In this document: piece after piece, positions 5,607 to 6,180 of the stretch | How the letters are laid out: each line of letters starts with the position of its first letter | Numbering within the stretch: the stretch's first letter is position 1 | NCBI GenBank assembly: GCA_902582385.1 | Contig: CACHRX010000008.1 | Location: 1 to 39,863 of the forward strand | Length of the DNA: 39,863 nt | Source: an uncultured Pelagibacteraceae bacterium | GTDB taxonomy: Bacteria > Pseudomonadota > Alphaproteobacteria > Pelagibacterales > Pelagibacteraceae | Reading direction: 5' to 3' | The notes under the pieces: model-generated | The model's database searches: none | Told to the model about the DNA's origin: nothing | Seen by the model: the letters and a program-made list of their open reading frames with translations, nothing else | Position numbers and translations under genes: made by a program

Positions 5607-5635
5607 CTTGAAAAAAAAAAATTAATTCCCAAGTA
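5607..5635 (+). promoter_or_regulatory. Probable sigma-32 (RpoH) heat-shock promoter
   Basis: CTTGAAA at 5607 is followed, 17 bases after CTTG, by CCCAAGTA at 5628. This resembles the alphaproteobacterial RpoH pattern CTTG-N17/18-CYTATNT at the -35 and starts like the E. coli CCCCAT -10. It stands right before the Hsp20 gene, where such a promoter is expected. The -10 match is only partial. The predicted transcript would start near 5642. Confidence 0.5.
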
Positions 5636-5649
5636 ATATACTGAGTCGC

Positions 5650-5690
5650 TTTATAGGGCTTATAAAAATAAACTTGCTTAACAAAGGAGG
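5650..5690 (+). promoter_or_regulatory. ROSE-like RNA thermometer in the hsp20 leader
   Basis: Two hairpins fill the short 5' leader. The first pairs 5650-5655 with 5661-5666 (six A-U pairs, 5-base loop). The second pairs CUUGCUU (5673-5679) with AAGGAG of the Shine-Dalgarno (5684-5689) over an AACA loop: CUU-AAG, then G5676 bulged, then UU and C against the rest of the site. A UUGCU strand masking AGGA with one bulged G is the defining final hairpin of ROSE thermometers, which block translation when cool and melt on heating. Folding energy was not computed. Confidence 0.55.
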
Positions 5691-5695
5691 ATATT

Positions 5696-6142
5696 ATGAC
5701 AAGTAAGGATTTATCTATATTTAACTCACTAAGGCCGTTTTCAATAGGCTTCGATGATATGTTCGAACAATTTGAAAATATGCTGGGAAATGGTGCTATG
5801 ACTATGCAGTCAAATTACCCACCATACAATATCAGAAAAACTGGTAAAGATAACTATGCAATAGAAGTTGCATTGGCTGGTTTTAATAAGAATGATGTTG
5901 AAGTTGAGTTTGAGGATAATTTATTAACTGTAAGAACAAAACAAGTTGATAAATCAGGTAACAATAATGCTGATGGTGAAATAATTCATAAAGGCATTTC
6001 TCAAAGACAATTTGCAAGATCATTCACTATTGCTGATGATGTAAAAGTTGATGGTGCTGAACTTAAAGATGGTCTTTTGACAATATCTTGTGAAAGAATT
6101 GTTCCAGAGCATAAAAAGAAAAAACTTATAGAAATAAAATAA
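5696..6142 (+). CDS. ibpA: Small heat-shock protein, Hsp20/IbpA family
   Basis: A 148-residue ATP-independent chaperone that holds unfolding proteins for DnaK/ClpB. The alpha-crystallin domain spans about residues 38-140 (PPYNIRKTGKDNYAIEVALA onward) and ends with ELKDGLL, the A-x-x-x-n-G-v-L signature. The C-terminal tail has the IEI motif (LIEIK) used for oligomer assembly. The start has a near-perfect Shine-Dalgarno, AAAGGAGG, that lies inside the predicted thermometer hairpin, so translation is probably heat-gated on top of a heat-shock promoter. It is a single gene with a strong inverted repeat just after its stop. Confidence 0.93.
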   Translation: MTSKDLSIFNSLRPFSIGFDDMFEQFENMLGNGAMTMQSNYPPYNIRKTGKDNYAIEVALAGFNKNDVEVEFEDNLLTVRTKQVDKSGNNNADGEIIHKGISQRQFARSFTIADDVKVDGAELKDGLLTISCERIVPEHKKKKLIEIK

Positions 6143-6151
6143 GTTGAGCCT

Positions 6152-6180
6152 TACTTGTGGGGTTTAACTCCCCACAAGTA
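6152..6180. terminator. Strong inverted repeat between convergent genes
   Basis: An 11-bp perfect stem (TACTTGTGGGG at 6152-6162 with its complement at 6170-6180) and a 7-base loop lie between ibpA and the convergent lipoprotein gene, which stops at 6184. Neither strand shows a clear U-run after the stem. It may work as a bidirectional terminator of unusual type or as a 3'-end stabiliser. Confidence 0.55.

Follow-up and report, generated by a model that had tools for sequence, protein, structure and literature searches.

The closest described relatives of the element studied here are the short, two-hairpin ROSE-like RNA thermometers of Pseudomonas ibpA, which have been tested experimentally, and in which pairing of U(U/C)GCU with the Shine-Dalgarno (SD) sequence gives temperature-dependent ribosome binding in vitro (PMC3669281). 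In the relevant sections of that paper, a ROSE element is defined by U(U/C)GCU imperfectly paired with the SD in the 3'-proximal hairpin (PMC3669281). The leader analysed here precedes the hsp20 gene in a stretch of 39,863 nucleotides (the window; contig CACHRX010000008.1 of assembly GCA_902582385.1, positions 1 to 39,863 of the forward strand) from an uncultured Pelagibacteraceae bacterium of the order Pelagibacterales (SAR11). Judged from its sequence and that of its relatives, this leader is very likely a short two-hairpin ROSE-like RNA thermometer and a divergent relative of the known kind, which probably hides the ribosome-binding site in the cool and opens it in the warm. Its parts are as follows.

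5642 to 5662, forward strand: hairpin 1, UGAGUC[G5648]CU-UUAU-AGGGCUUA, 8 bp with a bulged G (from covariation and RNAalifold)
5673 to 5689, forward strand: hairpin 2, the proposed thermosensor, with the anti-SD CUU[G5676]CUU at 5673-5679, the loop AACA and the SD side AAGGAG at 5684-5689 (from sequence, folding and a conserved motif)
5684 to 5690, forward strand: SD sequence AAGGAGG (from sequence; GGAG is invariant in 82 nonredundant leaders)
5696 to 6142, forward strand: gene for an Hsp20/IbpA-type small heat-shock protein of 148 amino acids (Pfam HSP20, 64.5 bits)

The AUG of hsp20 lies at 5696, and this gene is the single Hsp20 match in the source genome (974 kb, 82.6% complete). Hairpin 2 consists of the pairs C5673-G5689, U5674-A5688, U5675-G5687, C5677-G5686, U5678-A5685 and U5679-A5684, with G5676 bulged and A5680-A5683 (AACA) forming the loop, and it is recovered when the leader is folded up to the AUG. 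The bases and the pairing proposed for 5673-5689 in the original prediction, which was made from the window alone, are thus confirmed. The same prediction described the preceding hairpin as AU-only, which does not hold: hairpin 1 includes G-C, A-U and G-U pairs and the bulged G. The leader shows the imperfect U(U/C)GCU:SD pairing in its 3'-proximal hairpin and, in this pairing scheme, a bulged G opposite the SD core. Such a bulged G is important in ROSE elements, as seen in nuclear magnetic resonance work. A structured 5' hairpin lies before the sensor hairpin, and a small heat-shock gene follows, as judged by its position and identity.

Hsp20 was detected in 214 of the 297 genomes of the family to which the window belongs, including 118 of the 127 more complete ones. 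Among distinct leaders, 130 of 132 in this family and 13 of 14 in a sister family, for which 20 loci were sampled, carry the SD-pairing motif, U(U/C)GCU with an SD. Of the three leaders lacking it, two lie at contig ends. Conservation of the pairing in related genomes had been set beforehand as the test that could refute a thermometer, and the pairing is present; the U(U/C)GCU:SD pairing, whose UUGCU/AGGA form the original prediction took as the ROSE hallmark, is kept with its bulged G across two SAR11 families. UUG to UCG changes in SAR11 leaders convert U-G to C-G, and hairpin 2 occurs in two registers, CUU[G]CUU:AAGGAG and CCUU[G]CU:AGGAGG.

Covariation was assessed on alignment A1, in which 187 leader copies (some from the same contig twice) were reduced to 82 leaders of <88% similarity; L001, L141 and L069 were excluded as duplicates or truncated loci, and the sister family was handled apart. 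In hairpin 1, both partners vary at seven of the nine family pairs while the pairing is preserved, which supplies the compensatory changes in homologues that had been looked for, and 96.3% of cells are paired. The covariation score of the whole two-hairpin structure was reached by none of 500 shuffles, structures slid along the alignment scored lower, and RNAalifold predicted hairpin 1 unaided. Leaders of the sister family (L151-L170) mostly carry a very compact sensor, AAUC[G]CUU-AAG-GAGGAUU, with an upstream hairpin such as GCUUAGCUC...GAGUAAGC.

A leader-only covariance model (R1), trained on 46 leaders that stop at the AUG, gave 73.2 bits in the source genome for the leader of the window, the runner-up reaching 15.0 bits. 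Leaders in the held-out register were recovered as well, and sister-family leaders gave weak matches of 14-32 bits. Among 289 alphaproteobacterial genomes, the ten top matches outside Pelagibacterales all precede genes for Hsp20 (seven; L217-L221, L224 and L226) or RpoH (three; L222, L223 and L225). The next 17 matches inspected outside Pelagibacterales, at E 0.001-0.1, comprise one before RpoH (L227), one before Hsp20 (L231), two before DnaK (L235 and L240) and 13 others, which have no heat-shock gene behind them and were set aside as background; of the 43 rows of this search, 13 had no locus and lay outside the inspected set. The two dnaK (HSP70) leaders are weak matches with a mispaired hairpin 2, possibly degenerate or due to chance, and are not claimed as members of the class.

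A widened model (R2) was built from 34 leaders, including four rpoH leaders (L222, L223, L225 and L227). Its 22 matches at E<=0.01 among 385 alphaproteobacterial genomes precede Hsp20 (16) or RpoH (6) and no other gene, and all 16 Hsp20 genes exceed the Pfam cut-off. Eleven of these had served to train R2; the 11 others include five Hsp20 and three RpoH leaders from outside Pelagibacterales. L223 and L231, both found with R1, are missing among the 22. In 299 genomes of the phylum, R2 gave three matches, the leader of the window itself and two Hsp20 leaders from outside the class. In 20 leaders from outside Pelagibacterales (a model-fitted alignment), eight pairs of hairpin 1 and two of hairpin 2 are changed on both sides, the changes in hairpin 2 including C-G to A-U in six sequences and to G-C in two. 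Four of five covariation measures on these 20 leaders were reached by none or one of 500 shuffles.

Two-hairpin ROSE-like leaders thus stand directly before rpoH, the gene for sigma-32, at seven loci (L222, L223, L225, L227, L247, L250 and L251). They come from seven alphaproteobacterial genomes of four families (f23, f40, f92 and f96). All seven RpoH proteins scanned, including that of L223, exceed the cut-off of the NCBIfam sigma-32 subfamily, and four also that of the stricter rpoH_proteo. Five of the loci (L222, L225, L247, L250 and L251) have AAGGAU as the SD and AUUGCUU as the anti-SD, which is a compensatory change relative to the pairing in SAR11. Within the order to which one of the rpoH genomes belongs, two of four genomes gave a match, both known before. 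A 2014 review, in the part of its text used here, ties ROSE elements always to small heat-shock genes (PMC4166951), relative to which the rpoH leaders appear new; no paper retrieved for rpoH with ROSE or thermometers describes such leaders in its title or abstract opening.

The apex of hairpin 1 carries a conserved bulged G and GCC...GG in A1, which could be a recognition surface. The hairpins might then bind a regulatory protein or a small RNA, as in translational repression or autoregulation by Hsp20, with no direct sensing of temperature. We consider this unlikely, since pairing of U(U/C)GCU with the SD is how ROSE elements are documented to be built, with temperature-dependent ribosome binding in vitro in Pseudomonas (PMC3669281), and since control by temperature suits a class that sits before both RpoH and Hsp20.

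For the preferred reading, a thermometer, we infer a temperature response and control of translation from the structure, its conservation and the gene context. The mechanism is modelled on that of Pseudomonas ibpA as described in excerpts of PMC3669281, with a melting hairpin 2 and a stable first hairpin. Upstream of the leader lies a candidate promoter.

5607 to 5635, forward strand: RpoH (sigma-32)-like promoter, CTTGAAA at 5607-5613 and CCCAAGTA at 5628-5635, spacer 14

CTTGAAA-N14-CCCAAGTA is presumably of the RpoH type, going by the consensus. With a lenient pattern, for which no shuffled control was run, 147 of 171 distinct upstream regions in the family have TTGAA[A/T] and a -10-like element, and the spacer is 14 in 146 of these 147. 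RpoH would transcribe the leader from about 5642, giving a leader of about 54 nucleotides. The original prediction gave the same length and tied the minimal form to a streamlined genome, but such a form is not limited to streamlined genomes, because short two-hairpin ROSE elements are known from Pseudomonas, according to the same excerpts (PMC3669281). In the cool, hairpin 2 would cover the SD and block binding of the 30S subunit. Warming would melt its weak helix, which has a U-G wobble, a bulged G and two G-C pairs, and Hsp20 would be translated, while hairpin 1 would stay folded as a scaffold or as a protector of the 5' end.

Several results weigh against this reading. Within SAR11, hairpin 2 is almost invariant, and RNAalifold did not predict it on the 82 leaders of A1, where three of its pairs fail to form in 24-25 rows. 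The unpaired rows arose because MAFFT had shifted most of them, leaders of the CCUUGCU type, by one column, and hairpin 2 was therefore recounted on model-fitted alignments, which lean towards the structure fitted; in one of these, A3, 99.0% of the hairpin 2 cells are paired, although some of its entries are likely to be false matches (L160 and the second hits in L140, L137, L125 and L080). L140 is a true exception to the SD-pairing motif. It encodes a more distant Hsp20 (39% identity), and in its leader CUGUCU replaces UUGCU, yet is complementary to the SD. Among the 20 leaders from outside Pelagibacterales, the number of doubly changed pairs was matched by 39 of 500 shuffles. The modelled opening of the SD is modest and varies with the length of the RNA: in the energy model, the SD-free fraction for the window increases from 0.15 at 5 °C to 0.58 at 45 °C for a 117-nt RNA, stays near 0.73 throughout 10-40 °C for a 70-nt RNA, and is 0.13-0.20 for a 57-nt RNA ending at the AUG. 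With 60 coding bases, the mean fraction goes from 0.31 to 0.48 in 58 leaders of genes with SKD starts (see below) and from 0.47 to 0.52 in 23 others. Folding of the single sequence is also unexceptional, with 38 of 200 shuffles folding as well as the leader up to the AUG and 16 of 200 when 12 more coding bases are included. With these 12 bases, the minimum-energy fold pairs CUUGCUU with codons 2-4, and hairpin 2 is lost.

Rfam adds to these points. At the gathering score no family matches anywhere in the window, and in a permissive scan the only family touching the leader was RF02523 (ROSE_3), at 14.8 bits and E 0.78 against a gathering score of 43. The covariance search with the Rfam ROSE models that had been proposed thus touches ROSE_3 at a score far below its cut-off, and for this reason the leader is filed as ROSE-like and not as a member of ROSE_3. 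Among 20 relatives of the same order, 19 gave no match to any ROSE model at E<=5; the other, L118, was touched by ROSE_2 and ROSE_3, with 22.8 bits for ROSE_2 against a cut-off of 65. No ROSE match at E<=5 was obtained for 15 of 18 other loci scanned, and RF00435 (ROSE) was found in none of 61 genomes, all 14 control genomes being silent too. The remaining three of the 18 loci form a bridge to ROSE_3, with 28.6 bits (L218), 34.5 bits (L249) and 67.1 bits (L254). L254, an Hsp20 leader from outside the class that R2 detects at 38.1 bits (E 0.0012), contains the full ROSE_3 element. Going by these scores, the leader of the window is linked to an accepted ROSE_3 member through intermediates, a weaker connection than a direct match.

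It could further be argued that this is an ordinary AT-rich leader with a strong SD, in which CUUGCUU matches by chance. The loose motif TTGCTN{1,9}AGGA is common, occurring eight times in the window against 3.9 expected (two of 100 shuffles reach eight), and by itself it is weak evidence, compatible with chance. Since neither this motif nor single-sequence folding convinces alone, the case for the leader rests on conservation and covariation. These, together with the heat-shock genes behind the model matches and the single occurrence of the full string CTTGCTTN{2,9}AAGGAG in the 974-kb source genome, make a chance match very improbable. The thermometer reading of the original prediction is thus supported by the conserved pairing, the covariation of hairpin 1, and the model links to other Hsp20 leaders, one of them a full ROSE_3 element.

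The fold that extends into hsp20 involves a second candidate partner of the anti-SD.

5701 to 5707, forward strand: AAGUAAG in codons 2-4, a mutually exclusive second partner of CUUGCUU with seven contiguous pairs, one of them G-U (from codon invariance, the seven-pair ladder and a recoding test)

AAGUAAG is a full complement of CUUGCUU, so that the anti-SD can pair with either the SD (helix A) or the coding sequence (helix B), never with both. Codons 2-4 (5699-5707) are ACA AGT AAG in all 142 distinct genes of the MTSKD group, whose definition determines the residues but leaves the codons free. Among 123 residue-conserved positions in 102 genes of 148 amino acids, only codons 2-4 are codon-invariant. 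Elsewhere in hsp20, AGT accounts for 37 of 911 Ser codons and AAG for 266 of 1359 Lys codons. The seven-pair ladder is present in 105 of 108 SKD-like leaders (the failures being one contig end, L202 and L205) and in none of 24 other leaders. Synonymous recoding gave p = 0.016 for the type of the window and p = 0.006 to 0.042 for SKD and AGG-type SRD starts; TGKD (p 0.12) and L205 (p 0.19) were unremarkable. A general early-codon effect was considered and not taken to be a sufficient cause. The control was the permease gene that lies downstream at these loci (84 distinct copies, first 40 codons), in which codons 2 and 3 differ between copies and the common AAA is the sole invariant codon; being a single gene, it is a thin control.

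The two partners may form a two-state switch, in which CUUGCUU swaps between helix A and helix B and its capture by codons 2-4 aids release of the SD, or they may be two alternative OFF states. The invariance of these codons, of which AGT and AAG are in the minority elsewhere in the gene, set against a control in which the invariant codons are the common AAA, speaks for such an arrangement, as does the retention of pairing through U-G in the TSRD (AGG) and TGKD variants. In the modelled 117-nt RNA, helix B replaces helix A as the SD-free fraction climbs over the range given above. Recoding of codons 3-4 also makes the modelled SD-free fraction fall. Against it, the second partner is absent from the other SAR11 starts sampled and from the sister family, L202 and L205 lack the ladder, and codon 2 shows no variation even in genes where it is unpaired. 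The modelled direction also depends on RNA length, helix A being at 0.25 or less at 10-40 °C in RNAs of 70-80 nt, and when 15 coding bases are included the anti-SD pairs chiefly on the coding side at every temperature. A helix at +6 to +12 might in its own right be an obstacle to the ribosome. The second pairing may therefore be a switch or a second closed state, and the arrangement as a whole is a real possibility that falls somewhat short of probable. The wider proposal, in which the main SAR11 clade is bistable through codons 2-4 and the same class acts on rpoH in some Alphaproteobacteria with genomes of 1.2-1.6 Mb, is put forward only tentatively. If true, temperature sensing would act on both the chaperone and the regulator, beyond small heat-shock genes.

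A perfect 10-bp inverted repeat, ACTTGTGGGG...CCCCACAAGT, lies at 6153-6179, past the stop codon of hsp20, and is a possible terminator. A similar inverted repeat lies downstream of the hsp20 gene at L141.

SAR11 bacteria are among the most abundant organisms in the ocean and have a small regulatory repertoire, and a conserved thermometer on their Hsp20 gene would offer a testable handle on how warming is sensed. The leader model detects ROSE-like leaders below the Rfam cut-offs and suggests rpoH as a second class of target, and the codon-level complement provides a clear test case for a coding sequence constrained by an RNA thermometer. Stav et al. (2019) mention "a possible RNA thermometer" in SAR11 strain HIMB5, with no detail in the main text (PMC6429828), and this candidate may be the same leader. 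A word search of Meyer et al. (2009) on RNAs of P. ubique (PMC2704228) gave no occurrence of heat shock, thermometer, hsp, ibpA or chaperone, and thermometers are mentioned in general terms only in the portion of PMC2864753 used. A 2024 survey (PMC11109978) lists two thermometer candidates, and a word search of its main text found no ROSE, heat shock, rpoH or hsp. Among the papers retrieved on thermometers, Hsp20 or heat stress in SAR11/Pelagibacter, or on alphaproteobacterial ROSE elements and mutually exclusive thermometer folds, none describes the leader in its title or at the start of its abstract.

The SAR11 leader has in common with the Pseudomonas ibpA thermometers the two hairpins, U(U/C)GCU:SD pairing in the 3' hairpin, a sigma-32-type promoter and a small heat-shock gene. 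We take ROSE_3 (RF02523) and the short Pseudomonas elements to be the same set, and the two-hairpin layout matches. Hairpin 1 of the ROSE_3 model, like that of SAR11, has a single unpaired G on its 5' side followed by CC, but includes 11 bp as compared with 8 in the window. The upper flank of the SD core is U-A in SAR11 in place of G-C, and one SAR11 clade adds the conserved anti-SD complement in codons 2-4. Rhizobial and enterobacterial ROSE elements (RF00435 and RF01832, ROSE_2) share the U(U/C)GCU:SD core and the small heat-shock gene with the SAR11 leader, but are described in excerpts of PMC3669281 as having three to four hairpins where SAR11 has two. The E. coli rpoH thermometer likewise precedes the sigma-32 gene, whereas the ROSE-like rpoH leaders found here are short and consist of two hairpins.
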